Shown here: in pieces, positions 1 through 47,392 of the stretch
Position numbering within the stretch: the stretch's first letter is position 1
How the letters are laid out: each line of letters begins with the position of its first letter
Assembly (NCBI RefSeq): GCF_026130045.1
Contig: NZ_JAIBNX010000037.1
Location: forward strand, 1 to 49,557
DNA length: 49,557 nt
Direction: 5' to 3'
DNA from: Micromonospora sp. CPCC 205371
Lineage (GTDB): Bacteria > Actinomycetota > Actinomycetes > Mycobacteriales > Micromonosporaceae
Notes under the pieces: generated by a model
Told to the model about the DNA's origin: nothing
What the model saw: only the letters and a program-made list of their open reading frames with translations
The model's database searches: none
Program-made: the position numbers and the translations under genes

Positions 1-233
1 GGGGGCGGGCCGCGGGCGGCCGGGGGGGGGGGGGCGCGGCCCCCCGCCCGCGCGACCCCGCCCCCGGCGGCCCGGCGGCGCACCGCGAGCCGCCGCACCC
101 GCAGGACTAGGACGCGGTCGCCGTGGTGGTACGTGGGCTCCATGCTGCTGCCGACCACCGTCACCACGAGCAGGAGCGCCCGGGCCAGCAGGCCGGCCGC
201 GACAACGGCGGCGACCACGACGGCGTAGGTCAT
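1..233 (-). CDS. Signal peptidase I-like (S26) protease, 3' part missing
   Basis: Predicted membrane-anchored serine protease of the S26 (signal peptidase I) family. The N-terminus is one hydrophobic segment (about residues 4-28) followed at once by GSSMEPT and then HGDRVLV, the S26 box with catalytic Ser30 just before Met31. The Lys general-base region lies beyond the window edge. The ATG overlaps the stop of the ABC exporter gene as ATGA, so the two are translationally coupled. In this operon it most likely cleaves the exported cysteine-rich peptide rather than being the housekeeping enzyme (inference). The last 60 bases of visible sequence are G/C homopolymer runs typical of a contig end, so the translation after about residue 55 should not be trusted. 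Confidence 0.8.
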   Translation of the reverse strand, partial: MTYAVVVAAVVAAGLLARALLLVVTVVGSSMEPTYHHGDRVLVLRVRRLAVRRRAAGGGVARAGGRAPPPPAARGPP

Positions 234-2059
234 GGCTTCCCCTTCCCGACGAGTTCGCCGGCCAGGTAGCCGGCCGATTGCAAGCGGAACAGCCCGGCGT
301 ACTGGCCACCCGCGTCCATCAGCGCCGCGTGCGTACCCTGCTCTGCCACCCGCCCGTCACTGAGCACCACGATCTGATCGGTGTCCCGCACCGTGTTCAG
401 CCGGTGCGAGATGAGCAGGCTCGTCGCACCGGCCCGGTGGCGCCGCAGCTGGAGCTGTGCCTCGTGTTCGGCCTCCGGGTCCAGTCCGGACGACGGCTCG
501 TCCATGATCAGCAGGTCGGCGTCGGCGCGCAGGGCGGCGCGGGCTAGCGCGACACGCTGCCACTGGCCGCCGGACAGCGGCACGCCAGCCCCGCCGTCGC
601 CGTCGGCGAACGCACGGGTCAGCAGCGTGTCGTAGCCGGCCGGAAGCGCGGCGAGGGTGGCGTCCACGCCGGCGTAGCTGGCAGCGGCGCGGATACGGTC
701 CCGGCCGGCGGGACGGCTCACGTCGCCCAGCGCGATGTTGTCCGCGGCGCTCAACTCGTACGCCATATGGTCCTGGAAGACCGCGGCGATCCGGCGCCGC
801 AGCTCGGCGACAGGCAGCTCCCGCAGGTCGACCCCGTCCCAGGTGACCGCGCCGCGGACCGGGTCGTACAGCCGGCAGAGCAGCTTGACGACCGTCGACT
901 TTCCGGCGCCATTGAGACCGACCAGCGCGGTGCTGGCACCGGCCGGAATCGCCATGCTGAGCCCGCGCAGCACCCAGGGGTGGCCACGGTCGTACCGGAA
1001 CCACACGTCATGCAGCTCGATGCCGCGCCGCAGGCGCGGCACCGGCGCCGCCGCGGTGGTGCGGCCGGCACTCCCGCCGGACGGCTTTACCGGCAGGTCG
1101 GCCGGGGCGGTGACTACCTGGCGATAGCTGTCGAACAGGCGGATCGCCTCGTGCCACGAGGCGATCTGGGTCGTCACCGCGGTCAGCCCGCCCTGCAACC
1201 CGACCAGCGCCGCGGTGAGCACCGCGAGGCTGCCGAGCCCGGCGCTCCCAGAGGCGATCCGGTGCACGCCGGTCGCCAGGGCAACGCCGGACACGAGCGC
1301 GGTGATCAGCGACAGTCCCGCCGCCCCGCGCATGGTGTATCGGTCGACCGCCCGCTCCTCATGGTGCGCGGCGGCCATCTCGCCGTCCATCCGGGCGCGG
1401 AGGAATTCGCCGGTGCCGAAGAGGCGGATCTCCTTGGCCGCGCGCGGGTCGGTCAGCAGCGTCCCGTAGAACACTTGCCGCCGCCACCTCGGTGCCGTAC
1501 GCGCGATCATGGCGGTACGCCGGCGGGCGACCGCTAGCTGGGTGAGCAGGTTGGGCACCGCCGAGGCGGCCACCACCGCGGCGAGCAGCGGGCCGATGGT
1601 CAGCAGCGCGGCGAGGAACCCGCCGACCAGCAGCGCGTTCTGCACCAGGCCCTGGACGGCGGAGAGCGCCTGGTACGGGACGCTCAGCGCCGCCTGCGAA
1701 GCGATGTGGACCTGGTCGCGCATCGCGGGGTCCTCCAACGCCTTCAGCCCCTGCATGCGGTTGAGCCCCGCGAAGAGTCCGTCGTGCATCCGCCGGCGCA
1801 GCCGCCTGGCGATCTCCGCGTCCAGGTACTGCCCGATCGGCGGGACGAAGCCCAGCACCGCGCCGGTCACCGCGACCAGCACGACCGTCGTCCGCACCGG
1901 CGGCGCCGGCTGGCCGGCGAGCCCGTCGAGCAGCAGCTTCGTCGTCCACGCGGCGGTCACCGGGCCGAGCCCGGTGGCCGCCGCGAGCGCGAAACGAACC
2001 GCGACGAGCGGGCCCGCCGACCGCGCCACGAGCGCGGCGAGCAGGCGCACGCTGGCCAT
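230..2059 (-). CDS. Fused ABC exporter (TMD-NBD), likely peptide exporter
   Basis: 609-residue half-transporter with an N-terminal membrane domain of about six segments (residues 1-310) and a C-terminal ATPase. Walker A GLNGAGKST is near residue 380, the signature LSGGQWQR near 495, Walker B LLIMDEPSSGLD near 515 and the switch histidine in LLISHR. The order and length match homodimeric exporters of the lipid/peptide type. There is no N-terminal C39 peptidase domain, so any leader peptide must be cut by another protease; the adjoining S26 gene is the obvious candidate. The start codon directly follows the stop of the thioredoxin-like gene (TGAATG) and the stop overlaps the S26 start, so it belongs to the same operon. 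The substrate is inferred from context to be the 64-residue cysteine-rich peptide. Confidence 0.9.
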   Translation of the reverse strand: MASVRLLAALVARSAGPLVAVRFALAAATGLGPVTAAWTTKLLLDGLAGQPAPPVRTTVVLVAVTGAVLGFVPPIGQYLDAEIARRLRRRMHDGLFAGLNRMQGLKALEDPAMRDQVHIASQAALSVPYQALSAVQGLVQNALLVGGFLAALLTIGPLLAAVVAASAVPNLLTQLAVARRRTAMIARTAPRWRRQVFYGTLLTDPRAAKEIRLFGTGEFLRARMDGEMAAAHHEERAVDRYTMRGAAGLSLITALVSGVALATGVHRIASGSAGLGSLAVLTAALVGLQGGLTAVTTQIASWHEAIRLFDSYRQVVTAPADLPVKPSGGSAGRTTAAAPVPRLRRGIELHDVWFRYDRGHPWVLRGLSMAIPAGASTALVGLNGAGKSTVVKLLCRLYDPVRGAVTWDGVDLRELPVAELRRRIAAVFQDHMAYELSAADNIALGDVSRPAGRDRIRAAASYAGVDATLAALPAGYDTLLTRAFADGDGGAGVPLSGGQWQRVALARAALRADADLLIMDEPSSGLDPEAEHEAQLQLRRHRAGATSLLISHRLNTVRDTDQIVVLSDGRVAEQGTHAALMDAGGQYAGLFRLQSAGYLAGELVGKGKP

Positions 2060-2617
2060 TCAGGCTCCGCCGGTGCGCGCCAGCTCCGCCTGCTGCGGCA
2101 ACTCGCGGGAGGACACCGTGCCCGCCGCGTCGACGACGAAGAAGGTGGGGAACGTCTTGACCCCGAACGCCCGGGTCATCGGTCCGGACCGGTCCACCGG
2201 CTCGTACACGACGGTGGCGGGGCCGACCGCGGCGGTGAGCGCGTCGACCGGCTCGGCGCCCTCGATGATCACGGCGACCGCACGTCCGCCGCCGGCCAGC
2301 GCGGTCCGTGCGGCGGCGGCGAAGTCCGGCGCTCGCTCCAGGCAACCCGGGCAGTCGCTGGACAGGAACGCCACCGCGGCGGCGCGTCCGCGCACGTCGC
2401 GGTCGGTCACCGTGCCGCCGCCGGCCACCGCGCCGGTGAAGCGGGGCAGGGCCGAGCCCGGCGGCAGCCCACCCAGCACGTCGTACGGTATGCGGCCCGG
2501 CGCGGCCGTCCGGTCCTGCTCGTACACCCGCATCCGGCGGACGACCGCCGTGATGAGGATCAGGTTCAGCACGCTGACGGCGCCGACCAGCACCACCGCG
2601 GCAACGACGTACGGCAT
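2060..2617 (-). CDS. Membrane-anchored thioredoxin-like (TlpA/MauD-type) protein
   Basis: 185 residues. One N-terminal membrane anchor (about residues 3-27) precedes an extracytoplasmic thioredoxin-like domain. The redox motif is CPGC (Cys89, Cys92) in the context LSSDCPGC, and a cis-proline loop TFPTFF comes later. The order resembles MauD/TlpA proteins that make, reduce or isomerise disulfides outside the membrane. The chosen ATG has AAGGAG seven bases upstream. It lies 19 bases after the stop of the MauE-like gene and abuts the ABC exporter gene. With a MauE partner and an eight-cysteine peptide in the same operon, its job is probably disulfide formation or proofreading in that peptide (inference). 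Confidence 0.85.
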   Translation of the reverse strand: MPYVVAAVVLVGAVSVLNLILITAVVRRMRVYEQDRTAAPGRIPYDVLGGLPPGSALPRFTGAVAGGGTVTDRDVRGRAAAVAFLSSDCPGCLERAPDFAAAARTALAGGGRAVAVIIEGAEPVDALTAAVGPATVVYEPVDRSGPMTRAFGVKTFPTFFVVDAAGTVSSRELPQQAELARTGGA

Positions 2618-2636
2618 CGGTTGCTCTCCTTCACAT

Positions 2637-3253
2637 CTACTGGTTGCTGGCGGGGCGGCGGAACAGCGCCGCCAGGTCGTCGAGCATGACGACCATGAGT
2701 ACCGCGACCAGCGCACCCGCCACGCTGAGCGCGGCGCCGGCCGGGTTCGGCGCGGCGGGCTCGCCGGCCCGCGGGGGGGCCGCGCCCGTCGCCGGGGCGG
2801 TGCGGGGGGCCGCGAAGGGGGGCTGGCCGCGGCCGCCCGCCGGCGCCGGGCGCCCGCCCCCCCGATGGCGGCGGCGGCGAGGAGCACGCCATTGCGGGCG
2901 ACGTGCCGCCCCGCCACCGGATCGCCGGTACGACCGAAGCAGTTGCACGGCACCGCGAGCCGCCGCCGCACGGAACGGACGAGCACCGCGGTGAATGGCA
3001 GCAGCAGCACCGCCGCCGCCAGGAAGGCCATCGCTGGGGCGAGGCCCGACAACAGCGCGCCGCCGACACCGAGTTCGGCCGCCACCACACCGGCTGCGGC
3101 GGGCCCGGCGAGCCGGCGCGGCACGCCCACGTGGCGTCGGACCGAGACGGCGAACGCGGCGAACGCGGCCCGGTGCCGCAGCTTGCCGGCCGCGGCGCAG
3201 ATCAGCACGGCGCCCAGCAGGATGCGGCAGACCAGGACGGTGTAGGGCAGCAA
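2637..3253 (-). CDS. MauE/DoxX-type redox membrane protein, reading frame broken in the assembly
   Basis: Polytopic membrane protein of the MauE type, which passes electrons to or from a thioredoxin-like partner. About the first 140 residues read well: hydrophobic segments near residues 5-22, 50-70 and 74-93, then PCNCFG with Cys103 and Cys105, the CxC typical of the family. From about 2865 the frame runs into Pro/Arg-rich nonsense. A membrane-like ending (GALVAVLMVVMLDDL) and stop are found in another frame down to 2637. The span is not a multiple of three, and the break falls in long G and C runs (2773-2779, 2866-2873), so a sequencing indel is likelier than a true pseudogene. No ATG exists at the proper place; TTG at 3253 has GGAGGT upstream and is the best start. 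Confidence 0.7.
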
Positions 3254-3326
3254 CGTGACCTCCGCGGAAATGTCATCTGTGGCCGGAGCGGCTATGCGGG
3301 CAGCGCCCGCATAGCCGCCGCTGCGC

Positions 3327-3521
3327 CTAGTTGCAGCTGTTGACCCACTCCGAGCAGCCGCAGTACGGGCCACCGCTGTAGTTGCAGCCCTGACAGCCGG
3401 TCTGGCAGTTGACCCAGCACTGCGAGCCGACGCGCCGGCAGATGTGGTCCGCCTTGGCTTCCGCTCCCGGCAGCAGTGCCTGGAGCATCCGGTCGCCGAC
3501 CGCGCGCAACGATCGAGTCAT
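3327..3521 (-). CDS. Small eight-cysteine secreted peptide precursor
   Basis: 64 residues with cysteines at 28, 35, 39, 43, 46, 54, 56 and 63, all in the second half. The N-terminal 24 residues have no cysteine and no long hydrophobic stretch but end in PGAEAKA, which offers AEA or AKA as sites for a signal peptidase I-type protease. Cutting there would leave a 40-42 residue mature peptide that can hold four disulfides. GGAAAGGAAG lies just upstream of the ATG. It is the first gene of an operon encoding redox proteins, an exporter and an S26 protease. It may be a bacteriocin-like or defensin-like peptide, or a small partner subunit as MauA is for MauD/MauE. No family was recognised. Fulvocin C, a 45-residue myxobacterial bacteriocin also with eight cysteines, is only a loose analogy. 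Confidence 0.7.
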   Translation of the reverse strand: MTRSLRAVGDRMLQALLPGAEAKADHICRRVGSQCWVNCQTGCQGCNYSGGPYCGCSEWVNSCN

Positions 3522-3546
3522 ACCCCACTTCCTTTCCTGTGGCGGC

Positions 3547-3563
3547 GGGACGGGGCCCGTCCC
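3547..3563. promoter_or_regulatory. Palindrome in the divergent peptide/SARP promoter region
   Basis: GGGACGGG and CCCGTCCC form a perfect 8-bp inverted repeat around a single G. It lies 26 bases upstream of the peptide start codon, in the 150-bp gap shared with the divergent AfsR-type gene. It may be an operator or a hairpin in the peptide mRNA leader. Both readings are inference. Confidence 0.4.
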
Positions 3564-3593
3564 GACTCATCGACGATCGTTCCTGGGATGGCA

Positions 3594-3621
3594 CTTACAC
3601 CGGCTACTCGTCGGCTATACA
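3594..3621 (+). promoter_or_regulatory. Candidate promoter of the first AfsR-type gene
   Basis: CTTACA, a 16-base spacer and TATACA resemble a housekeeping -35/-10 pair. Transcription would begin near 3628, about 45 bases before the ATG at 3672. The match is only fair. Confidence 0.3.
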
Positions 3622-3671
3622 TTCGCGATGCGCGCGGGCCCGACGGCCCGAAAGAATCCACGGGGGATGCG

Positions 3672-6506
3672 ATGCGCTATACGATCCTGGGCCCGATAGA
3701 GGTGATCTCCAACGGGCGGCCGGTGCCGGTGGCCCGCCCGCAACGCCGGGCCCTGCTGGCCCTCCTGCTGCTCAACGCCAACCGACCGATCAGCCCGCCC
3801 GCCGCCATCGAGGCGCTGTGGGGGCCCACCGCACCGAAGACGGCGCAGGCGCAGATCCACTCGGCCGTACACGCTTTGCGGGCGCAGCTGCGCGACGCCG
3901 GATGTCCCGGCACGATCGACTGGCGGGCCGGAGGCTATGCGATCCGAGTCGAGCCGGACCAGCTCGACGCCGACCGCCTCGGCCGTCACCTGGCGGAGGC
4001 GAAGAACCGCATCGCCAAGCGACGGTTCGCCGAGGCGGCCGACGCCGCGCGGGCCGGGCTGGCGCTGTGGCGTGGCGAGCCGCTCGCCAACGCCCAGGGC
4101 GCGTTCGTCGCCGCCACTCGCGAGCACCTGCACGAACGCCGCCGCGCCACGCTGGAGGCGCTGGCCGAAGCCGAGCTGGCTGTGGGTCGCCACGCGGAGG
4201 TCATCGGTGAGCTGGCCCCGCTGATGGACGAGTACCCGCTGCACGAGAAGTTCTGCGAGCAACTCATGCGGGCGCTGCACCGGGCCGGCCGCACCGTGGA
4301 GGCACTGGAGCGGTTCCGGCGCCTGCGTGCCGCGCTGGCTGACCTGCACGGCTTGGATCCGAGCCCGGCGCTGCGCGACGTGGAGGGCGCGATCCTGCGG
4401 GGCGAGCTGGAGCCGGCACTGCAGCACGACGAGCCGCGGGCATCGGGGCCAGGCGTGGCGGGGGGCCGGCGCGGCGCGCCCGCCGCCACGGGCCCGGCCC
4501 AACTCCCCCCCCCCCGGTACGGCTTCAGCGGCCGCGGCGGGGAGGGGGGCCCCCTGGACCGGCTGCTCGCCGGCGCGGCGCGGCACCCGACCGCCGTGGT
4601 GATCTCCGCCGTGTCCGGCGTCGCGGGGATCGGCAAGACCGCGCTCGCCGTGCACTGGGCCCACCGGATGGCCGGCGCGTTCCCCGACGGCCAGCTCTAC
4701 GTCAACCTGCGCGGCTTCGACCCGGACGGCGCCGCGATGGATCCGCACGAGGCGCTGCGCGGGTTCCTGGACGCCCTGGGGGTTCCGGCCCACCGCATGC
4801 CGATCGGTCAGACGGCCCGCACCGGACTGTTCCGCAGCCTGCTCGCCGGCCGCCGGATGCTCGTGCTGCTCGACAACGCGCGCGACGCCGCGCAGGTGCG
4901 TCCGCTGCTGCCCGGGGCGCCTGGCTGCGCGGTCCTGGTGACCAGCCGCAACCAGCTGCCCAGCCTGGTCGCGTCCGAGGGAGCCCAGCCGCTCATCCTC
5001 GACGTGCTGACCGCCGCGGAGGCCCGCGAGCTGCTCACCCGGCGGCTCGGCGAGGATCGGACGGCCGGCCAGCTGCAGCCGCTCGAATCGATCATCGCCG
5101 GATGCGGCCGGCTGCCGCTCGCTCTCGCCATCGTGGCCGCTCGCGCCGCGACCAGCACCAGCCTGCCCCTGGCGAGCCTCGCGGCGGAACTGCACACCGG
5201 AGACTCCCGGGACCGGCTCGACGCGCTCACCGGCGCCGATCGCACGGTCGACGTACGGGAGGTGTTCTCCTGGTCGTACCACCGGCTCGGCGCGGAGGCG
5301 GGCCTGCTGTTCCGGTTGTTCGGGCTGCATCCGGGCCCGCACCTGCGACCGAACGCCGCGGCCAGCCTCGCCGGCACGTCGGCCGCCCGGATCCGCCCGC
5401 TGCTGGCCGAGCTGACCACCGCCAACCTGGTCGCCCGGCACAGCCATGACCGGCACGTCCTGCACGACCTGCTACGCGCCTACGCCACCGAGCTGACCCA
5501 CCGGAAGGAGTCCGACGAGGAGCGACGGCTGGCGTTACGGCGGCTGCTCGACCACTACCTGCACACGTCCCGGGCGGCCGCCCTGCTACTCAACCCCATA
5601 CGTGACCAGATCCCCCTCGACGAGCCCGAGCCGCATACCGCACTCGACGATCTCGCCGACGATGAGGAGGCGCTCGCCTGGCTCACGACCGAGCGCCCTG
5701 CGCTGATCGCCATGATCCGGCTGGCCGCACAGACCGGATTCCACACGCACGCGTGGCAGCTCGCGTGGACCCTCGACGACTTCTTCGACCGGCGTGGCCA
5801 CTGGGCCGACCAGGCCGCGAGCCAGGAGACCGCGCTGGCCGCCGCCCGCCGGCTGGCCGAGCGATCCGCCCAGGCCCAGGCGCACAGCAGCCTCGGCCGC
5901 GTATACAACCGCCTCGCCCGCTACGACGAGGCCGAGGCCCACCTCCGGCAGGCGCTGCGCGTCTTCGGCGAGCTGGGCGACGACGTCGGTCGCGCCCGCA
6001 GCTATCACAACCTGTCTGAAGTGGCCGAACGCCGGGGCCGCTACGACGAGGCGCTGATCAGCACGAAAGCGGCCCTGAACCTGTGCCGGGCCAACGGCCA
6101 CCGCCTCGGCCAGGCCAACACGCTCACCACGATCGGCTGGTACCACATGCTGCTCGGGCGGCACCGGTACGGACTCGCGTACTGCCGGAAAGCACTCCCG
6201 CTGCACCAGGAGCTGGGCGATCGGCACGGCGAGGCGGCGTGCTGGGACAGCTTGGGCTACGCCCACCACCACCTCGGCCAGCACGAGGAGGCCCTCGCCT
6301 GCTACCGGCGCGCCCTCAAGATGTGCCGGGAGTTCGGCGACCGTTACAACGAAGCGGGTGTTCTCGCCAACCTCGGCGACGCCTACGCGGTCCGCGGTGA
6401 CGGCGGCAACGCCCGGGCGGCGTGGCGGCAGGCGCTGGACATCCTCGACGATCTCGACCACCCCGACGCCGACCAGGTTCGCCAGAAACTCGCTACGGCC
6501 AGCTAG
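3672..6506 (+). CDS. AfsR-type SARP transcriptional regulator (first of two)
   Basis: 944 residues. The N-terminal winged-helix DNA-binding domain (about 1-92, beginning MRYTILGPIEV) is followed by the bacterial transcriptional activation domain (about 95-245), an NB-ARC ATPase (about 270-560; P-loop GVAGIGKTALAV near 316, kinase-2 strand MLVLLDNARD) and C-terminal TPR repeats (about 690-930). This is the AfsR plan: activators that bind direct repeats and recruit RNA polymerase. The ATG at 3672 was chosen because the family's first strand starts there; the frame is open further upstream. It is divergent from the eight-cysteine peptide operon and likely controls it. Residues about 255-300 are coded by G/C runs (4440-4560), where the paralogue at 13502 reads more normally, so some residues there are probably wrong. 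Confidence 0.92.
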   Translation: MRYTILGPIEVISNGRPVPVARPQRRALLALLLLNANRPISPPAAIEALWGPTAPKTAQAQIHSAVHALRAQLRDAGCPGTIDWRAGGYAIRVEPDQLDADRLGRHLAEAKNRIAKRRFAEAADAARAGLALWRGEPLANAQGAFVAATREHLHERRRATLEALAEAELAVGRHAEVIGELAPLMDEYPLHEKFCEQLMRALHRAGRTVEALERFRRLRAALADLHGLDPSPALRDVEGAILRGELEPALQHDEPRASGPGVAGGRRGAPAATGPAQLPPPRYGFSGRGGEGGPLDRLLAGAARHPTAVVISAVSGVAGIGKTALAVHWAHRMAGAFPDGQLYVNLRGFDPDGAAMDPHEALRGFLDALGVPAHRMPIGQTARTGLFRSLLAGRRMLVLLDNARDAAQVRPLLPGAPGCAVLVTSRNQLPSLVASEGAQPLILDVLTAAEARELLTRRLGEDRTAGQLQPLESIIAGCGRLPLALAIVAARAATSTSLPLASLAAELHTGDSRDRLDALTGADRTVDVREVFSWSYHRLGAEAGLLFRLFGLHPGPHLRPNAAASLAGTSAARIRPLLAELTTANLVARHSHDRHVLHDLLRAYATELTHRKESDEERRLALRRLLDHYLHTSRAAALLLNPIRDQIPLDEPEPHTALDDLADDEEALAWLTTERPALIAMIRLAAQTGFHTHAWQLAWTLDDFFDRRGHWADQAASQETALAAARRLAERSAQAQAHSSLGRVYNRLARYDEAEAHLRQALRVFGELGDDVGRARSYHNLSEVAERRGRYDEALISTKAALNLCRANGHRLGQANTLTTIGWYHMLLGRHRYGLAYCRKALPLHQELGDRHGEAACWDSLGYAHHHLGQHEEALACYRRALKMCREFGDRYNEAGVLANLGDAYAVRGDGGNARAAWRQALDILDDLDHPDADQVRQKLATAS

Positions 6507-6694
6507 GACTTGCCGCACTTGAATCGCGCCGCGAAGAGTTCGCCTTCCTGTCCGGCTTCAGCGTCGACTGGTATGTCCGTCTCCAACACGGCCGCCAGAT
6601 CACCCCGTCGGAGTCGGTACACGGTCGGCCCACGGCCTCGCACCCAAGCGTTGCAGGCTCTCCAGCGTCTCCGCCTCATCGAGAAACCACCTCG

Positions 6695-6766
6695 CGCAAG
6701 AGGTGCCGCTCCAAACCCGCAGATCGATCTCGCGTGATCGTCCAAGTTGGATTGGCACCTCTTGCG
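6695..6766. terminator. 20-bp inverted repeat between convergent genes
   Basis: Arms at 6695-6714 and 6747-6766 pair at 18 of 20 positions, with a perfect 13-bp outer part (CGCAAGAGGTGCC), around a 32-base loop. It lies between the end of the AfsR-type gene and the end of the NlpC/P60-like gene and would work as a two-way terminator. There is no T run. The rest of the 6507-6784 gap shows nothing recognisable except a weak 80-codon minus-strand frame. Confidence 0.5.
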
Positions 6767-6784
6767 ATCGGGCCTTCCCTCAAC

Positions 6785-7783
6785 TTAGCCCGTGAGGTTG
6801 GTGCCGCCACGGTCATGCCAGGATGACCAGCCCCCGGGACGCCACCACATCTCGTACATGTGGCCGTTGGCGCCAATGGCGTAGACCTCCAAGGTTTCGC
6901 CAGCCGGGTTGTAGACGGCCGCTGGCGAGCCCGTGAGGGTGCCGCCGTGGTCAAGCCAGGCGGACCAGCCGGCGCCTTCACGCCACCACATCTCGTACAT
7001 GTGGCCGTTGGTGCCGATGGCGTAGATCTCCAGGGTGCCGCCGATCGGGTTGTAGATGGCGGCTGGCGAACCAACCAAGCCGGTTCCGCCGCGGTCGTGC
7101 CAGGCGGACCAGCCGGCGCCTTCACGCCACCACATCTCGTACATGTGGCCGTTGGTGCCGATGGCGTAGACCTCCAGGGTCTCGCCGATCGGGTTGTAGA
7201 TGGCGGCTGGCGAACCAACCAAGCCGGTTCCGCCGCGGTCGTGCCAGGCGGACCAGCCGGCGCCTTCACGCCACCACATCTCGTACATGTGGCCGTTGGT
7301 GCCGATGGCGTAGACCTCCAGGGTGCCGCCGGCCGGGTTGTAGACGGTGGCTGGCGAACCAACCAAGCCGATTCCGCCGCGGTCGTGCCAGGCGGACCAA
7401 CCCGAGCCCTCGCGCCACCACATCTCGTACATGTGGCCGTTGCTACCAATCGCGTACACGCCGAGTGTGCCGCCGACCGGGTTGTAGATGGCGGCCGGCG
7501 AACCGACGAAGTTCGTGCCGCCGCGGTCGTGCCAGGATGACCAGCCGGCGCCGTCGCGCCACCATTTCTCGTACATGTGGCCGTTGGTGCCGATGGCGTA
7601 GACCTCCAGGGTCTCGCCGGCCGGATTGTAGATGGCGGCAGGGGATCCGGCGAGGTTGGTGCCGCCGTGGTCGAGCCAGGATGACCAGCCGGCGCCCTCG
7701 CGCCACCACGTCTCATACGTGTGACCGTTGCTACCGTTGGCGTACACCTCCAACGAGCCGCCAGCGGGGTTGTACACCACCGG
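6785..7783 (-). repeat. Seven tandem 144-bp coding repeats (propeller blades)
   Basis: Seven in-frame units of about 144 bp. Central units are almost identical at the DNA level; for example CCACCACATCTCGTACATGT recurs at about 6841, 6985 and 7129. The two end units are more divergent and the last is shortened by two residues. Such similarity shows recent unit duplication or conversion within the gene. Confidence 0.9.
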
Positions 7784-8488
7784 CTCCGACTGCACCGCCG
7801 GGGCGGCGGGCTCCGGGGCGCTGTCGGCCATGTTGTTGTAGCGGACCGGCGTATAGAGGCTCGCGTTGGCGGCTGTCCAATTCCGTTCGATCGTGTCCTG
7901 GCTGCCGGTCTGCTCGATGACCCTCGGCTGGGTGTGTGCGGCGTCCGCCCAACTGACGAACAGCGCCACGTGATTCTCGTCCGGGTCGCCGCTGTACCGC
8001 AGCAGCGCGTCGCCCGGCTTCAGGTCGCTACGCGGAATGACGTGCGACCGGAGGTCCAGGTTGCCGGTCCAGAACGCGCTGCCTGACCCGCCGAGACCCC
8101 ACGCCATCGAGACGAACCCCGAACAGTCGGTGCGGTAGTCGCCGTACTGATTGCGGTAGCACCGCTCCTGGCTGTAGGGGATGCCGCCGACGTCAGTCCA
8201 ACTGCGCGCGCGGACCAGCGCCTGGTCGCGTGTCATAGCCTTGTCGGCGCCGTTGTTGTCACACGGTATGGGGGTGGTCGTGACGGCGAGCGTCGTTGCC
8301 CGGCCCGGGCCCGGCGGGAGACCCGGGTACTCGGGCAGTGGCGGGTCACCGGGAACGGACGGTGTCGCTGCCGGCGCGGCCACAGCGTCCACCGGTGTCG
8401 CAATCACGGCGCCCGCAAGCAGAATCAGCAACAGGAACTGACTGCCGGCCAGTCTTCGACGCTGTCTCCAGCGTGCGGACAGGTGCAT
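6785..8488 (-). CDS. Secreted NlpC/P60-like protein with seven-bladed lectin-like propeller
   Basis: 567 residues. A signal peptide (about 1-38) is followed by a Pro-rich linker, a catalytic domain (about 80-220) and a C-terminal repeat domain (about 236-567). The catalytic domain has DCSGFVSMAW (Cys122) and ENHVALFV (His173), the Cys/His layout of NlpC/P60-type cysteine peptidases or amidases that act on peptidoglycan or surface peptides. The repeat domain is seven units of about 48 residues built on YNPxGxTLEVYAIG, NGHMYEMWWR and GWSxWHDRGG, like PLL-type fucose-binding propellers. AAAGGAAA precedes the chosen ATG. Known-family reading: an enzyme brought to glycan surfaces by a propeller lectin. 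The target is unknown. It is the last of three minus-strand genes for secreted proteins. Confidence 0.8.
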   Translation of the reverse strand: MHLSARWRQRRRLAGSQFLLLILLAGAVIATPVDAVAAPAATPSVPGDPPLPEYPGLPPGPGRATTLAVTTTPIPCDNNGADKAMTRDQALVRARSWTDVGGIPYSQERCYRNQYGDYRTDCSGFVSMAWGLGGSGSAFWTGNLDLRSHVIPRSDLKPGDALLRYSGDPDENHVALFVSWADAAHTQPRVIEQTGSQDTIERNWTAANASLYTPVRYNNMADSAPEPAAPAVQSEPVVYNPAGGSLEVYANGSNGHTYETWWREGAGWSSWLDHGGTNLAGSPAAIYNPAGETLEVYAIGTNGHMYEKWWRDGAGWSSWHDRGGTNFVGSPAAIYNPVGGTLGVYAIGSNGHMYEMWWREGSGWSAWHDRGGIGLVGSPATVYNPAGGTLEVYAIGTNGHMYEMWWREGAGWSAWHDRGGTGLVGSPAAIYNPIGETLEVYAIGTNGHMYEMWWREGAGWSAWHDRGGTGLVGSPAAIYNPIGGTLEIYAIGTNGHMYEMWWREGAGWSAWLDHGGTLTGSPAAVYNPAGETLEVYAIGANGHMYEMWWRPGGWSSWHDRGGTNLTG

Positions 8489-8553
8489 GATGATTTCCTT
8501 TCGGTCGCTCGTGGGTCGGGTCCGCCTGGGTCGATGTGATTCGAAGGGTGGGT

Positions 8554-11500
8554 TCAGGCGCTCGCCGGGGCGGGCACCTGTGTCGCCGTGTGCCAGGTCT
8601 GTCCGTCGTTGGAGACGTCCACGCGGTAGTGGGACGCGTATGCCGCTTCCCAGCTGACCACCACTCGGTCCAGTGGCCGTGTCGAGCCCAGGTCCACCGT
8701 GAGCCACCCGGGTTGTGTGCGATGGTCCACCGCGACGGCCCATCGGGTGCCTGAGTCGCCGTCGACGGCTTGCGTTGCCGGGAAGTTCGGGTCCGCCGAC
8801 GAGGCGGAGACCGGCCGACCGGCAGCCAGGTTCCCGCCTGAACCACTGTGGACGGACAGTTCCCATAGCGAGAACCCGTACTGGGTGGCCGCCCGCACCC
8901 CGTACACGCGCACATATCGGCCCGACACCGCCGGGAACCGCAGCTCGTCCACCCCACCATTGCCTGGCGGCAGCACGACGAGGTCGGTGACGCCGGCACC
9001 GGCCTGCCAGGTGGTCGCGACAAGCGCGACGTAGCGGGCCGTCGCGGTGGTGTTGGCCGAGTACGGCTGGAACGTCAGGCCGTCCGTGGAGACCTCGATG
9101 CTGGTGACTGGCGCGGTCCCCGAGGACCAGGTCGGGAACACGCCGCCGACCGCGATGGCCGCACCGAGGTCGACGACCATCCGCCGGCCGGCGGCGCCAG
9201 GTACCCACGACGTGGCCGGGTCACCATCGACCGCGAGCGCCGGATCGGTCATTCCCGGCGGTAGCGGCGAACTCGGGAATGCGGTCCGGGCTCGGGCCAG
9301 GTCGGGCGTCGGTGTGCGGAGACCGCCGAACCCGGCGCGGACGGTCTGGCCCGCGCCTGCCGTGACCGTGACGGTCTCGCTCGTCGCCAGCGACCGCAAA
9401 CGGACCGCGACCGCCGCTCCGGCGGGGCCTGTGACGTCGACGGTACGCGAGTCGCGGACGTAGATGACGGTGCCGGCTGGCAGCGCGGCGCCTGACGGGT
9501 CGGTGGCGGCGAACCGCGCCGGCGTCACCCGCGCGTCGGCCGCCGCGATGCTCACCGTGTACCGCGTGGTGTCGCCGGCCGCGACCTGCTGCACCCCCTG
9601 GTACAGGACGGTTTCCGCGGTGGGTTGGGGCACGGTGAACTGGGCACCGTTGGCGACGGCGGTGGTGAGGTTGAAGATGCTCAGGTGCCCACCAGCGAGG
9701 CTGGTGGCGAGGCCCGCGGGCACGTCGCGCGGGGCCGGAAGCGCGGCGCGCTGCGCCGTTTGGGTGGGCGTCTCGGCCGGGTACGCCTCGACGAGCATGC
9801 CCGCGCTGCCAGCGGCGGGACCGTCTGAGAGCACGAATCCGGTCGAGGAGACGGTGATCGGGTTGCTGCCGCCGCGCACCAGGAAGCCGGCACGACCGTC
9901 CACATTGAGCCAGTCACCGGCGGCCGTCGTCTCATCGGAGACGGTCGCCGCTGTCTGCCAGGTCTGTCCGTCGTTGGAGACGTCCACGCGGTAGTGGGAC
10001 GCGTATGCCGCTTCCCAGCTGACCACCACTCGGTCCAGTGGCCGTGTCGAGCCCAGGTCCACCGTGAGCCACCCGGGTTGTGTGCGATGGTCCACCGCGA
10101 CGGCCCATCGGGTGCCTGAGTCGCCGTCGACGGCTTGCGTTGCCGGGAAGTTCGGGTCCGCCGACGAGGCGGAGACCGGCCGACCGGCAGCCAGGTTCCC
10201 GCCTGAACCACTGTGGACGGACAGTTCCCATAGCGAGAACCCGTACTGGGTGGCCGCCCGCACCCCGTACACGCGCACATATCGGCCCGACACCGCCGGG
10301 AACCGCAGCTCGTCCACCCCACCATTGGCGGCCCCGGCGAGGTCCGTCGAGCCGCCGGACCAGGTGAAGGTGCGGGTCCCGTCCAGCCCGGGCACGCCGG
10401 GCATGGACAGGTTGTAGACGTTCAGTCGGCCTTCGCCCGCGGCCAGTCCGCTGGTGGCGTAGACGGCCGTGCCGTCCGGCAGCGTGGTGAAACCCGCGAC
10501 ACCGGTCGCTGTCCGTACCGCGGTGGCGGACGCGTCGACACCGTCGCGCCGCCGCGTGTACGCGTGTGCGCTACGCGCCAACACCTCAGTGTCGACGGAC
10601 GGCAGCAGGGCGGGACTCTTGCCGGCGACGTCGAACAGCCAGTCGTCGTGCTGCGGCAGGTAGGCGTACTTGACGAAGCCGGGCTTGGTGACGGCGGCGG
10701 CGAGTGCCTGGGGGGTGGCGTGCGCGAGCAGTCCCGGGCCGGCACCGTAGTCGACACTGCCGGCAAAGCGCGTGAAGTACTCGGATTGGCTGACCGGCGC
10801 CACGTCACCGGCCAGCCGGTCGCGCCACACATGCAGCAGGTAGGCCATCGCCAGCTCGGCCCGCGCCTCGGGCTCGTACTTCGGCTCGCCGCTGAACTTG
10901 GTCAGCCGGCCCGCCGGGGCGTACCGCACGTACGGCAGGAGCCGGTCGGCCAGCATCTGCTCGGCGCGCGCCGCATACCGGTCACCAGTCAACATCGCCC
11001 GAGCGGTGATCGGAAGCAGCGTCCGGCCGTACAGATGGTGCCGGTCCGCGACCGTGAAGCTCTCCGGCACGCCGGAGTCCGTGCCCAGCTGGGCCATGGT
11101 CTCCCACAGCTCGTCGCCGTTGGGCACCTGCCGCAGTTCCTCGGGCAGCGGCCGGTCGGCGAGCAGGAAATGTACCGCGTTGCGGCCCGAGTAGCCGCCG
11201 ACTGACTGCTGGTAGATCGGCGCCCAGGACCCGTGGTTCTCCACGATGAACGTGTCCCACGCGTTGTGCGCGGTGTTCCATGTGGACACCGGCCGGCCGT
11301 TGAGGACCGTGGGGTTGGCCCGGTCCGCGACCGGCAGACCGCCCATGTTGGACAGCCAGCGAGTGTGCCACTCTCGCCATCGCCCAGCCTGGCTGTCACC
11401 GGGCAACCAGGCCAGGCCGACCGCGAGCGGCATGCTACGCATGCCCATCTCCTCGATCTTCGAGTCGCCGGCATAGCCACCCGCGAGCCCGTTCGTCGAC

Positions 11501-12024
11501 CACCCGTCGACGTCACCCGAGCCGACGTTCACGATGTTGTTCGCTGAGGAGCGGACGATGGTGTCGACGCGGTTCTGCGTTGTGGCGTCCAAATCGGACC
11601 AGAGCAGCCGTGCAGCCGCCACGAAGTAGCTTTCGAAGGTGGAGTCCCAGTAAACCCGGCCACCCCAGGTGCCGCTCGATGCAACCCACCGGTTCTGCGC
11701 TGCCGCCACTCGGATGGTCCGCACCGTGTGGTCGCGCAAGGTCGCGGCGCTGACGCCGGCGAGCTGTTCGTCGTACCCGCCGGACGTCAGCAGGACGGCG
11801 TTGCCCAGTACACCGGCGAAGTAGAAGTCCTGGATGCGGTATGTGCCCGCGGCGGCGTCCCAGGTGCTCTCCATGAACGGCGTGTTCAACAGCAACGCTT
11901 GCCGGTAGACCGCCGCGGCGGCATCCTCCGGCGCCGCGGCCCGCGCGGCACGCGGCGTCGTGGGCGCCCCCCCAGGGCCCGCACCGACCCCGGCCAGCAA
12001 TGCGGCCACGAGCCGGGATCTCAT
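8554..12024 (-). CDS. Large secreted protein: predicted helical-toroid catalytic region plus discoidin (F5/8C) domains
   Basis: 1156 residues. The start has a weak signal peptide (MRSRLVAALLAGVGAG). Residues about 35-430 look like an (alpha/alpha) toroid as in polysaccharide lyases and related enzymes, with aromatic-rich motifs such as VENHGSWAPIYQQ and WNTAHNAWDTF. I could not place it in a named family. Two identical discoidin-like domains lie at about 566-690 and 1021-1144, with a third, diverged one (about 870-1000) before the second copy. Such domains usually bind sugars. With the lyase at 19428 and the propeller protein next door it is probably a polysaccharide-active enzyme (inference). 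A GTG start five codons upstream is possible; neither start has a strong ribosome site. Confidence 0.65.
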   Translation of the reverse strand: MRSRLVAALLAGVGAGPGGAPTTPRAARAAAPEDAAAAVYRQALLLNTPFMESTWDAAAGTYRIQDFYFAGVLGNAVLLTSGGYDEQLAGVSAATLRDHTVRTIRVAAAQNRWVASSGTWGGRVYWDSTFESYFVAAARLLWSDLDATTQNRVDTIVRSSANNIVNVGSGDVDGWSTNGLAGGYAGDSKIEEMGMRSMPLAVGLAWLPGDSQAGRWREWHTRWLSNMGGLPVADRANPTVLNGRPVSTWNTAHNAWDTFIVENHGSWAPIYQQSVGGYSGRNAVHFLLADRPLPEELRQVPNGDELWETMAQLGTDSGVPESFTVADRHHLYGRTLLPITARAMLTGDRYAARAEQMLADRLLPYVRYAPAGRLTKFSGEPKYEPEARAELAMAYLLHVWRDRLAGDVAPVSQSEYFTRFAGSVDYGAGPGLLAHATPQALAAAVTKPGFVKYAYLPQHDDWLFDVAGKSPALLPSVDTEVLARSAHAYTRRRDGVDASATAVRTATGVAGFTTLPDGTAVYATSGLAAGEGRLNVYNLSMPGVPGLDGTRTFTWSGGSTDLAGAANGGVDELRFPAVSGRYVRVYGVRAATQYGFSLWELSVHSGSGGNLAAGRPVSASSADPNFPATQAVDGDSGTRWAVAVDHRTQPGWLTVDLGSTRPLDRVVVSWEAAYASHYRVDVSNDGQTWQTAATVSDETTAAGDWLNVDGRAGFLVRGGSNPITVSSTGFVLSDGPAAGSAGMLVEAYPAETPTQTAQRAALPAPRDVPAGLATSLAGGHLSIFNLTTAVANGAQFTVPQPTAETVLYQGVQQVAAGDTTRYTVSIAAADARVTPARFAATDPSGAALPAGTVIYVRDSRTVDVTGPAGAAVAVRLRSLATSETVTVTAGAGQTVRAGFGGLRTPTPDLARARTAFPSSPLPPGMTDPALAVDGDPATSWVPGAAGRRMVVDLGAAIAVGGVFPTWSSGTAPVTSIEVSTDGLTFQPYSANTTATARYVALVATTWQAGAGVTDLVVLPPGNGGVDELRFPAVSGRYVRVYGVRAATQYGFSLWELSVHSGSGGNLAAGRPVSASSADPNFPATQAVDGDSGTRWAVAVDHRTQPGWLTVDLGSTRPLDRVVVSWEAAYASHYRVDVSNDGQTWHTATQVPAPASA
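8591..8962 (-). repeat. Exact 372-bp direct repeat, copy near the gene 3' end
   Basis: Identical base for base to 9956-10327, offset 1365 bp (455 codons, in frame). It encodes one discoidin domain of the toroid/discoidin protein. Identity stops abruptly at both ends. Confidence 0.95.
9956..10327 (-). repeat. Exact 372-bp direct repeat, central copy
   Basis: Partner of 8591-8962, with no base difference found by eye. It encodes the first discoidin domain. Such a block is also a classic site of short-read misassembly, so the copy number needs care. Confidence 0.95.
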
Positions 12025-12108
12025 CAAAGCCGCCACCACCTACTCAGTCGCACGGCGGTGGGACGCCCATATCGAGGCCACGGACACCCCACCCCCGTTA
12101 GCCGTCCA

Positions 12109-13386: not shown

Positions 13387-13501
13387 GGGCAGCCTCCTCC
13401 TTGTTGGGTGAATGGCGTATCCCAGGCCAGCGCAATCTATCGATGCAACCTTGCGCTTTCCTTGCCGCTACACTGTGCGGTCGGCACAGGGGAGACGGGG
13501 C

Positions 13502-16297
13502 ATGCTGGAATTCCGCTTGCTCGGGCCGGTCGAGGTCGTGGTCGATGGCCAGCCGGTCCGCGTCGGGCCGCCGAAGCGGCTGGCGGTGTTGGCCGCGCTG
13601 GCCATGGACGCGGGGCGGCCGGTAACCGTGGAGACGCTGGTCGACCGGGTGTGGGGCGCCGAGGCGGCGCCGGCTAACCGCGCCACCCTCTACAGCCACA
13701 TCACCCGCATCCGCCAGCTGGTCGCCGACGCGGCGGCCGCGAGCCGGTCGCCCGCCGCTGTGCAGCGCGTTCCCAACGGGTATGTCCTACGTGCCGAGCC
13801 GGACGCGATCGACCTGTTCCGGTGCCGGCGCCTTGCTGACCTCGCCCGGGACGCGCCCGCGGGTCCGGCAAGGGCCGCGCTGCTGCGGGAGTCGCTTGAG
13901 CTATGGCGCGGTGAGCCGCTGTCGGGTGTGACCGGCGCCTGGGCCGACCGGGTGCGGCACGCGCTGACCGACCAACGGATCGCGCTGCTCGCCGCTTGGG
14001 CCGCGGACGAGATCGACGTCGGCCGCCACGACGTGGTACACGAGGAAATGTCGGCGGTCCTCGCCGACCATCCGCTGGCCGAGCCGCTGGTCGCCGTGCA
14101 GATGCGTGCGCTGTTCCGCGGTGGGCGCGCCGCCGAGGCGCTGGCCCAGTACGCCACCGTCCGCCAGCGCCTCGCCGACGAGCTGGGCACCGAACCGGGT
14201 CCGGAGCTGCAACGACTGCACGAGGCGATCCTGCGCGGCGGCCTGGAGTGGCGTCCGGCTGCCGCGCCGCCGCCCGCGCCGCACCCGGCGGGAGTCGTGC
14301 CGGCCCAACTGCCGCTGGACGTTTTCGGCTTCACCGGCCGCCTGGACGAGCTGGACCGGCTGGACCAGATCGGACGGGACAGCAGCGCACAACCCACGAC
14401 CGTGGTGATCTCTGCGGTGTCCGGCACCGCCGGGGTCGGCAAGACGGCCCTGGCCGTGCATTGGGCACAGCGCGCCGCCGGCCGGTTCCCCGACGGACAG
14501 CTCTACGTGAACCTGCGCGGGTTCGACCCCAGCGGCGCGGTGATGTCGCCGGCCGAGGCCATCCGGGGATTCCTGGACGCCTTCCAGGTGCCGCGTGACC
14601 GGATACCGGCGGGCCTACAGGCACAGGTAAACCTTTACCGGAGCCTGTTGGCCCACAAGCGGGCGCTCGTGGTGCTCGACAACGCGCGCGACGCCGAACA
14701 GGTCCGCCCGCTGCTGCCCGGCGCCCCCGGCTGCATGGTCCTGGTGACGAGCCGCAACCGGCTCGCGGGCCTGATCGCGGCCGAGGGCGCGCAGCCACTC
14801 CACGTCGACGTGCTCACCGTGGCCGAGGCACGGCAGCTACTCGCCCGCCGCCTCGGCGCCAGCCGGCTAGACGCCGAACCGGACGCCGTCGCGGATCTGA
14901 TCGTCTACTGTGCCCGGCTGCCCCTCGCCCTTGCCATCGTGGCGGCGCGTGCCGCCACCCATCCGGAGCTTCCCCTCAGCATGCTGGCGGCCGAGCTGCG
15001 GCAGGCCCGCGGCGACCTCGCGCCGTTCACCGGTGACGACCCGGCCACCGATGTGCGGGCCGTCTTCTCGTGTTCGTACGACATGCTCAGCCCCGCCGCC
15101 GCGCGCCTGTTCCGGCTGCTGGGCCTGCACCCCGGTCCCGACATCAGCGGGCCCGCTGCCGCCAGCCTCGCCGGGGCCGCGCCGGCCGCGGTCACGCCGC
15201 TGCTGTTCGAGCTGACCGAGGCGCACCTGCTCACCACCCCGGCACCGGACCGATACAACTTTCACGACCTGCTGTGCGCCTATGCCGGCGAGCTTGTCCG
15301 CCAGCGGGATTCGGACGACGAGCGGCGCGCCGCGACGCACCGAATGTTCGACCACTACCTGCACACCGCGTACGCCTGTGACCGGTGGATCTCTCCACTG
15401 CGCGGCCCGATCATCCTTCCACCGCCCACCGCGGATACAACACCGGAGGGCGTCACCACGTACGAGGCCGCGCTGGACTGGCTCACCACCGAGCACGCCG
15501 TGCTGCTGGCCACCATCAGGCTGGCCGCCGCGCAGGGATACGACAGGCGGGCCGCGCACCTCGCCTGGGTACTGGTGACCTTCTTCGATCGGCGCGGGCT
15601 CTGGCATGACTGGGTCACCACCCAGCACACCGCGCTGACCTGCGCACAACGCGTGAACGACGTGACCGCGCAGGCCAACGCCCACCGCGCGCTCGGCCGC
15701 GCCTACATCTACCTGAACCGTCCCGCCGACGCCGAGGTGCACCTCAAGAGTGCGCTGAGCAAGTACAGCGAGGTGGCCGACCACCCGGGCAAGGCGTACG
15801 CCCACCTGAACGTCGCCATCCTGCTGGGCCAGCAGGAGCGCCACCGCGAGGCTCTCGACCACGCGACGCAGGCGCTGCGCCTGTTCCGCCGCACACAGCA
15901 CCGGGTCGGCGAGGCGCTGGCGCTCAACGCGGTCGGCTGGAGCCACGCGCAGCTCGGCGACCACCACCAGGCCCTGCGGCACTGCCGTCGGGCCGTGGCC
16001 CTGCTCCGGCAGGTCGGCGATCGCAACAACGAGGCCATGACCCTGGACAGCCTGGGCTACGCGTACCACCAACTTGGTCGGCACGAGGAAGCCATCGCGT
16101 CCTACCGGCGCGCGCTCGCCATCTATCGGCAGTTCCACGCCAGCTTCTTCGCCGCCGAGACCCTCCAGCGGCTCGGCGACTCCTACGATGCCACAGCGAA
16201 CGCCGCCGGCGCTCGGCACGCCCGGGGGGAGGCGCGTGCCATCCTCGACGATCTGGGCCATCCCGACGCCGAGCAACTGCGCGCCCGGCTCGGTTAG
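13502..16297 (+). CDS. AfsR-type SARP transcriptional regulator (second of two)
   Basis: 931 residues with the same plan as the protein at 3672: DNA-binding domain (1-92, MLEFRLLGPVEV), activation domain (about 95-245), NB-ARC (P-loop GTAGVGKTALAV near 309, ALVVLDNARD) and C-terminal TPRs (about 680-925). Long blocks match the first regulator almost word for word (PDGQLYVNLRGFDP, VRPLLPGAPGC), so the two are close paralogues. GGGGAGACGGGGC precedes the ATG. It is divergent from the trypsin-like protease gene and probably controls secreted hydrolase genes in response to a small-molecule or nucleotide signal sensed by the NB-ARC/TPR part (family knowledge plus inference). Confidence 0.92.
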   Translation: MLEFRLLGPVEVVVDGQPVRVGPPKRLAVLAALAMDAGRPVTVETLVDRVWGAEAAPANRATLYSHITRIRQLVADAAAASRSPAAVQRVPNGYVLRAEPDAIDLFRCRRLADLARDAPAGPARAALLRESLELWRGEPLSGVTGAWADRVRHALTDQRIALLAAWAADEIDVGRHDVVHEEMSAVLADHPLAEPLVAVQMRALFRGGRAAEALAQYATVRQRLADELGTEPGPELQRLHEAILRGGLEWRPAAAPPPAPHPAGVVPAQLPLDVFGFTGRLDELDRLDQIGRDSSAQPTTVVISAVSGTAGVGKTALAVHWAQRAAGRFPDGQLYVNLRGFDPSGAVMSPAEAIRGFLDAFQVPRDRIPAGLQAQVNLYRSLLAHKRALVVLDNARDAEQVRPLLPGAPGCMVLVTSRNRLAGLIAAEGAQPLHVDVLTVAEARQLLARRLGASRLDAEPDAVADLIVYCARLPLALAIVAARAATHPELPLSMLAAELRQARGDLAPFTGDDPATDVRAVFSCSYDMLSPAAARLFRLLGLHPGPDISGPAAASLAGAAPAAVTPLLFELTEAHLLTTPAPDRYNFHDLLCAYAGELVRQRDSDDERRAATHRMFDHYLHTAYACDRWISPLRGPIILPPPTADTTPEGVTTYEAALDWLTTEHAVLLATIRLAAAQGYDRRAAHLAWVLVTFFDRRGLWHDWVTTQHTALTCAQRVNDVTAQANAHRALGRAYIYLNRPADAEVHLKSALSKYSEVADHPGKAYAHLNVAILLGQQERHREALDHATQALRLFRRTQHRVGEALALNAVGWSHAQLGDHHQALRHCRRAVALLRQVGDRNNEAMTLDSLGYAYHQLGRHEEAIASYRRALAIYRQFHASFFAAETLQRLGDSYDATANAAGARHARGEARAILDDLGHPDAEQLRARLG

Positions 16298-47188: not shown

Positions 47189-47289
47189 GAGGCCCCTCCA
47201 CCGTGCATGAACGACGCGGAAGGTATAGCGGTCGATTTCTGGCCGCGACAATCCATCATGCGAGCGGCGCGGCAAACGTCCCGAATTTG

Positions 47290-47305
47290 TTGCAGGATGC
47301 TGCAA
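47290..47305 (-). promoter_or_regulatory. TTGCAG-N4-CTGCAA palindrome upstream of the LamG gene
   Basis: TTGCAG, GATG and CTGCAA match the core of the site upstream of the PL8 lyase gene; the palindrome extends one base each side (GTTGCAG, CTGCAAC). It lies 101 bases before the GTG start. A likely operator. The 47189-47392 gap holds no other feature. Confidence 0.55.
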
Positions 47306-47392
47306 CGGGCTCGGGGGGAGGCGCTCGCCACCCGACGAACGTCGTGCTGACGCCTTGACTCGGTGCGGCACCGAGGCCGGCTGGGCGACGCG

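Follow-up and report, generated by a model that had tools for sequence, protein, structure and literature searches.

Among the candidate families of ribosomally synthesized and post-translationally modified peptides (RiPPs) proposed with decRiPPter in 2020, three from Streptomyces carry mauE and one of them also mauD, with precursors of at least eight cysteines, according to the passages on mauE in that paper (PMC7794033). The same passages record a speculation that MauE forms disulfides in methylamine dehydrogenase maturation, name S. viridosporus T7A among the strains concerned, and state that the strict filter of the method demands a transporter, a peptidase and a regulator. Experimental precedent for a dedicated oxidoreductase in a peptide cluster comes from TMcin, whose own DsbA-like protein TmcD promotes disulfide formation, as the preprint's account of that cluster reports (PMC13252029). 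Here we describe an operon at one end of a 49,557-nucleotide stretch of Micromonospora sp. CPCC 205371 (NZ_JAIBNX010000037.1, assembly GCF_026130045.1), referred to below as the window, which makes up the whole of contig C301 in a 481-contig genome of 9.36 Mb. Its genes lie on the minus strand between positions 1 and 3521 in the order peptide, MauE, CPGC redoxin, ATP-binding cassette (ABC) exporter and S26 protease, with an AfsR-type gene on the plus strand from 3672. We consider it likely that this gene set makes a secreted disulfide-rich peptide, by leader-guided export, oxidation at the cell surface by the thioredoxin and MauE, and removal of the leader by the S26 protease. By comparison, the peptide belongs to a large, little-studied family in actinomycetes, in which the front part is common and the cysteine-rich ends are very variable.

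The precursor gene (3327..3521, minus strand), preceded by AAGGAAG, which resembles a ribosome-binding site when read by eye, encodes 64 residues with eight cysteines and AEA/AKA sites just before the cysteine-rich half, exactly as had been noted in an earlier reading of the window from its letters alone (the sequence-only reading). Residues 1-24 form the leader (MTRSLRAVGDRMLQALLPGAEAKA) and residues 25-64 the core, and relatives with the same leader layout occur in its own genome and across the Actinomycetes. The leader is encoded at 3450..3521 (minus strand), and the statistics of the leader hits predict an S26 cut after AKA (A24). The family search was seeded with five peptides, and a later profile was built from 48. 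In the first set of 46 peptides, the final Ala of A-x-A lies exactly 14 residues from the Asp (or Glu) in 43 and 13 residues from it in one, two peptides having no A-x-A. The layout was almost fixed in the 146 distinct leader hits, with D at -15 in 128, R at -14 in 116 and P at -7 in 131; A or V stood at -3 in all 146 and A at -1 in 145, statistics that are partly built in, since the training leaders of the profile were aligned on A-x-A. Two hits were excluded from the 146 for core length (L045, 4 residues; L127, 120 residues), and two low-scoring, chance-looking entries are included (L126, no cysteine; L087 4111-4422, two cysteines). Signal peptidase I prefers such a -3/-1 pattern. Judged by hydropathy and charge only, without a signal-peptide predictor, the leaders showed no Sec-type hydrophobic core (12-residue hydropathy median 0.85, maximum 1.6 over the 146), and most of them are charged at -15/-14 (D-R). 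A conserved leader followed by a variable core is a RiPP-like layout, and the features of double-glycine/C39-type bacteriocins were not found, the leader ending in A-x-A rather than GG and the exporter having no C39 domain among its Pfam matches.

The cores contained 0 (one core), 2 (one), 4 (eight), 6 (60), 7 (one), 8 (61), 10 (12) or 12 (two) cysteines, that is, an even number in 145 of the 146, the odd one having seven (L042, identical to L083). When only cores less than 50% identical were counted, 86 of 87 had an even number, compared with a mean of 43.6 and a maximum of 56 in 1000 pooled shuffles, and the same 87 cores showed 86 different cysteine spacings. Their composition was 17% Cys, 8.3% Tyr, 3.5% Trp and 2% His, with a mean net charge of +1.4. 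When 33 pairs of relatives, selected for a core identity of 50-97%, were compared, 237 of 241 cysteine columns were identical, and so were 729 of the 1040 remaining core columns. The even count is kept as the spacing drifts, as full disulfide pairing predicts. With four disulfides, the 40-residue mature peptide of the window would have a calculated monoisotopic mass of 4364.63 Da. The ratio of nonsynonymous to synonymous substitution rates (dN/dS) in the same pairs was about 0.40 for the leader and 0.47 for the core, indicating purifying selection; positive or diversifying selection on the cores was considered and showed no sign there.

Since selection by peptide was to be avoided, recurrence was evaluated in 80 named loci chosen by the exporter alone, from Streptomyces, Nonomuraea, Actinomadura, Lentzea, Microbispora, Nocardiopsis and others. 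The 24-position leader profile gave 68 matches of at least 10 bits in these loci and none in the same open reading frames (ORFs) reversed. At 11 bits and with a full leader end, 64 peptides were retained in 60 of the 80 loci, all 64 with an even number of core cysteines; the test is not fully independent, because at least two loci (L148 and L168) carry the same peptides as the training loci L081 and L080. Nine of the 20 loci without a profile match hold divergent peptides recognized by eye (L129, L131, L135, L152, L155, L189, L197, L203 and L208), and in five more (L154, L159, L161, L196 and L206) the exporter is no more than about 1.4 kb away from the end of a contig. The thioredoxin was found in 75 of the 80 loci, the S26 protease in 71 and MauE in 53. 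A second sample of 45 peptide-seeded regions, mostly the best-scoring of the listed places and not all of them, comprised ten regions of one genome (G009), discussed below, and 35 others. Of these 35, the thioredoxin, the exporter and the S26 protease were each present in 33, and MauE was present in 30, once as a decayed remnant, so that homologues occur mostly with these genes. The export and oxidation pathway proposed by the sequence-only reading is thus supported by the recurrence of leader-matching peptides beside the exporter and by the even cysteine counts, and the operon is real, since a gene set that recurs in many other genomes is more than a chance arrangement.

Coarse clustering of the neighbouring genes of the 80 loci (called genes of at least 70 codons, exporter excluded) gave only four clusters present in more than seven loci: S26 (43), thioredoxin (43), MauE (39) and AfsR-type (33 loci), the last with 37 of its 38 members matching the AfsR-type protein of the window. 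No dedicated modifying enzyme beyond cleavage and disulfide formation, and no lanthionine synthetase, was present in the window operon by domain searches or among these widely shared clusters.

Catalytic motifs are retained in most or all homologues. Of 80 homologous thioredoxin ORFs, 77 have CxxC, and C89, C92 and P157 are invariant in 32 sequences; MauE has CxC in 53 of 53 homologues, and the S26 homologues have the SMxP serine motif in 71 of 71 and the aligned Lys in 65 of 71. The window thioredoxin shows the features of the TlpA/ResA type, namely a Redoxin/AhpC-TSA domain, CxxC and a cis-Pro, and stays below the curated cut-offs for StoA (18.5 of 210 bits) and ResA (15.7 of 170). Taken together, sequence comparison shows one leader family, a recurring gene set, an even number of cysteines and conserved catalytic residues.

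The sequence-only reading had described five co-directional genes that touch or overlap. Order and strands are as described, and touching holds for the last three genes only: the peptide and MauE genes are separated by about 73 nt and the MauE and thioredoxin genes by 19 nt, the thioredoxin and ABC genes abut, and the ABC and S26 genes overlap by 4 nt. MauE, at about 2637..3253 (minus strand), matches Pfam PF07291 with 1.1e-24 on its N-terminal frame and passes the gathering cut-off (87.5 bits compared with 27), which bears out the family assigned to it. It does not form one open frame, the N-terminal part and the C-terminal end lying in different frames shifted in a G-run zone at about 2750-2880. 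Its start, a TTG after GGAGG, was placed by eye. The break may be genuine or may stem from an error in sequencing; nine of the window's 20 runs of six or more G or C fall in positions 1-5000, which points to poor consensus at the contig end, perhaps including this frameshift. The predicted CPGC thioredoxin-like protein was confirmed at 2060..2617 (minus strand) as a TlpA/redoxin-like protein with an N-terminal hydrophobic stretch, CPGC and a cis-Pro (Redoxin 3.9e-12, AhpC-TSA 5.9e-10). The fused ABC exporter without a peptidase domain of its own also agrees with the Pfam matches, which comprise ABC_tran (2.5e-25) and no C39, at 230..2059 (minus strand). The S26 signal-peptidase-like protease (3..233, minus strand; Peptidase_S26 7.2e-5) is of the family proposed, with the gene truncated by the contig start; its SMEP motif is present, its Lys region is lost past the contig start, and what can be read of its end is of low complexity. 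The divergent regulator (3672..6506, plus strand) is of the AfsR-type SARP/NB-ARC/TPR architecture, as had been proposed (BTAD 1.5e-34; NCBIfam AfsR model 540 bits, below the cut-off of 1430), and shares with the peptide operon an intergenic region, 3522..3671, that we presume to be their control region.

Elsewhere in the window, a second AfsR-type BTAD/NB-ARC/TPR regulator lies at 13412-16297 (plus strand), about 7 kb from the first. A gene at 6785-9208 (minus strand) has a DUF346-repeat match and, by eye, an NlpC/P60-like stretch, and its neighbour at 8554-12039 (minus strand) has two F5/8 type C domains. An ORF of 1521 residues at 42806-47371 (minus strand) carries three Laminin_G_3 (concanavalin-like) stretches.

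The same genome holds a second, independent cluster on contig C2 (locus L024), with a peptide at 6610-6798 (minus strand), MauE at 4905-5438 (minus strand), an ABC exporter at 8797-10560 (minus strand), a thioredoxin, an AfsR-type gene and an S26 gene on the opposite strand. Its core has six cysteines, and its BLAST match to the window peptide spans residues 1-24 only. A MauE search of the whole genome (E 0.001) returned two places, both in peptide clusters. The arrangement in genome G009 is different: one machinery locus (L223; S26, ABC exporter of 736.7 bits, thioredoxin and MauE) shows no leader match in its 16 kb, and peptides are found at 18 places (E <1e-5), the nearest about 190 kb from that locus. 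The 19 peptides read in this genome each have an even cysteine count. Judged from gene content, a single machine appears to serve substrates dispersed over the genome. Three family peptides of this genome lie within 0.65 kb in L061 (6002-6651) and two within 0.6 kb in L065 (9092-9681), which suggests local duplication of orphan peptide genes. Two family peptides also stand close together in each of the clusters L069, L070, L076, L095, L140 and L171, and three in L101. In a further genome (G119), region L028 carries degraded remains of a peptide gene and of MauE, next to an AfsR-type gene that shares 70% identity with that of the window, and no thioredoxin, family exporter or S26 gene was found there.

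Profile matches were obtained in four of six genomes of the genus (E 0.001), 71 of 397 of the order (E 0.05) and, with the 48-peptide profile, 35 of 394 of the class (E 0.01), the own genome being counted in each; the weak tails of the order and class searches, which include matches with internal stops, are partly chance. Two of 396 genomes of the phylum sample matched (E 0.001), namely the own genome and one class member, and no match outside the Actinomycetes was seen in that sample, for which few candidates per genome were scored. At most 15 candidates were scored per genome in the larger samples, so these tallies are lower bounds. The sequence-only reading had not recognized the peptide family, and indeed no Pfam or NCBIfam family covers the window peptide or the set of 48, which gave only weak single-member matches, the best to a zinc-ribbon model (0.0012-0.0013, one member). 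A profile search of solved structures in the PDB with the 48 peptides gave no match at E 1.

On these comparisons, we propose that translation yields a precursor whose short, non-Sec leader would recruit the dedicated ABC exporter without a peptidase domain. A membrane-anchored TlpA-like thioredoxin would then pair the cysteines on the outer face of the membrane and would be recharged by MauE, possibly through a quinone link, or, in loci lacking MauE, by a different oxidase. A membrane-anchored S26 protease would cut after A-x-A and free the mature peptide, which in the window would have 40 residues and four disulfides. Export is placed before oxidation because the N-termini of the thioredoxin and the protease are hydrophobic when read by eye. 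The AfsR-type regulator probably switches the operon on, and a bacteriocin-like action on other bacteria is the most likely role of the mature peptides.

Several observations weigh against this proposal. Six loci without a cut close to the exporter (L134, L139, L177, L181, L193 and L205) have no peptide by profile or by eye, and L134 has no partner at all; L171 and L180 have the peptide and the exporter with no thioredoxin found. MauE was not found in 27 of the 80 exporter-picked loci, some of them well inside contigs (L130, L133), so it is no fixed part of the gene set, and either another oxidase may serve in those loci or the redox pair does something else. None of the partners lies near the peptides of the ten G009 regions, and the same holds for a lone peptide in another genome (L027), which has an AfsR-type gene beside it. 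In the window, MauE is frameshifted and S26 is cut. Even counts also made up 70% of a less refined control set, namely other short ORFs that carry four or more cysteines within the last 40 residues, because the count of four dominates that set. CxxC occurs in 46 of the 87 cores, and two or more in 14, and even counts fit metal binding as well. The neighbour clustering caught S26 and thioredoxin in 43 loci each, compared with 71 and 75 by profiles, so short or fast-evolving genes such as immunity genes could be missed. An AlphaFold model of the window peptide alone was poor (predicted local distance difference test, pLDDT, 53.5) and was left unused. TlpA-like proteins are often reductants, which bears on the direction of electron flow.

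A rival reading is that the thioredoxin and MauE are an isomerase or reductant of the DsbC/DsbD kind, proofreading disulfides made by the general oxidase of the cell and not themselves the oxidant. The redoxin/AhpC-TSA-like Pfam assignment of the thioredoxin and its weak StoA and ResA matches would suit this role, as would the loci without a MauE match, and proofreading would be useful to cores with 4 to 12 cysteines and almost no common spacing. The speculated formation of disulfides by MauE in methylamine dehydrogenase maturation, as told in the mauE passages of PMC7794033, points the other way, and no further redox gene was present among the widely shared neighbour clusters of the coarse analysis; we regard proofreading as possible, though less probable than direct oxidation. 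If the peptides were instead secreted metal binders, similar to metallothioneins or bufferins, the redox pair would keep their thiols reduced for metal loading. The cysteine-rich cores, their even cysteine numbers and the CxxC motifs are compatible with this, and MauE faintly matches the model of the copper-RiPP protein HvfX (12 bits of 80, far below the cut-off). Two CxxC motifs are present in so few cores, histidine is so scarce, and the spacings are so many that metal binding seems quite improbable, and the coarse clustering showed no metal gene among the widely shared neighbours. Thioether or other enzymatic cross-links, as in lanthipeptides or sactipeptides, would agree with the RiPP-like layout of leader and core, and are hardly credible given that neither the window operon nor the widely shared neighbour clusters of the 80 loci contain a modifying enzyme at the coarse level of that analysis.

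The target of the product is a separate matter, and a signal or developmental peptide in place of an antagonist is a tentative alternative that we find rather doubtful. It is favoured by the divergent AfsR-type regulator, by purifying selection on leader and core with no sign of an arms race, and by the lack of any shared immunity-like gene in the coarse clustering. Against it stand the wide diversity of the cores and a genome with as many as 19 different peptides, both of which would be unusual if the product were a single signal.

If secretion of a disulfide-rich peptide by this gene set is correct, common actinomycetes would hold a class of genetically simple, disulfide-locked peptides that lies outside Pfam and NCBIfam and can be found by its leader. 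The portable gene set might fold quite different cysteine-rich peptides; MauE and its thioredoxin would acquire a second, easily assayed role; and the system would allow a direct test of a Gram-positive cell dedicating an oxidative folding pair to one substrate family. Evenly balanced, in our view, is the wider idea that a single machine at the cell surface, working with a constant leader, exports, oxidizes and trims very different even-cysteine cores, either in cis, with an operon for each peptide, or in trans (19 or more peptides scattered over a chromosome, as in G009), which would make the system a bacterial counterpart of animal toxin and defensin repertoires and a large untapped stock of folded multi-disulfide peptides.

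Several known systems share parts of this design. In class I lanthipeptide export, a peptidase-free ABC exporter (NisT) is followed by extracellular removal of the leader (NisP), as proposed here; NisP is a subtilisin-type protease and not an S26 protease, and the window has no lanthionine synthetase. The nickel superoxide dismutase maturation protease is of the S26 type and acts on a non-Sec leader, although its substrate is a metalloenzyme and neither an exporter nor a redox pair is involved; the corresponding NCBIfam model, TIGR02754, weakly matches the window S26 (16 bits of 63). Fulvocin C, of some general resemblance, was considered as a relative and dropped. The window operon resembles the MauE/MauD system of methylamine dehydrogenase maturation in combining a MauE-family membrane protein, a thioredoxin-like partner and a disulfide-rich substrate (the substrate role as given in the mauE passages of PMC7794033), and differs from it in its substrate, here a short leader peptide that has an ABC exporter of its own. 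None of the mau enzyme genes was present in the window operon, whose left side is lost at the contig start, or among the widely shared neighbour clusters, MauA not having been searched for. TMcin, as its preprint describes the cluster (PMC13252029), likewise joins a peptide to a dedicated oxidoreductase, a leader protease and an ABC exporter, and is unlike the window operon in its single disulfide, its transmembrane peptide, the DsbA-like TmcD and the S2P-clan protease TmcP.

The window operon is also close to the decRiPPter families, which share mauE, a transporter, a peptidase, a regulator and cysteine-rich precursors according to the passages that describe them (PMC7794033), the only paper we found that holds both MauE and RiPP. 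We found no later work on these families, most subscription papers lying outside the search. S. viridosporus NRRL 2414, of the same species as T7A and a different strain, has three family places (E <1e-4), all beside MauE and thioredoxin and two with leader matches (6 and 10 core cysteines), and we take the decRiPPter mauE families to be putative members of the present leader family. The idea is therefore not wholly new, and the sequence-only reading went too far in calling the pathway possibly undescribed. The decRiPPter passages on mauE state no common leader, S26 site, cysteine parity, wider spread or trans arrangement. As far as the literature searched extends, the new elements are a class-wide leader family that joins such clusters, an S26-type site, cysteine parity that holds while the spacing varies freely, the small set of genes and the arrangement in trans.

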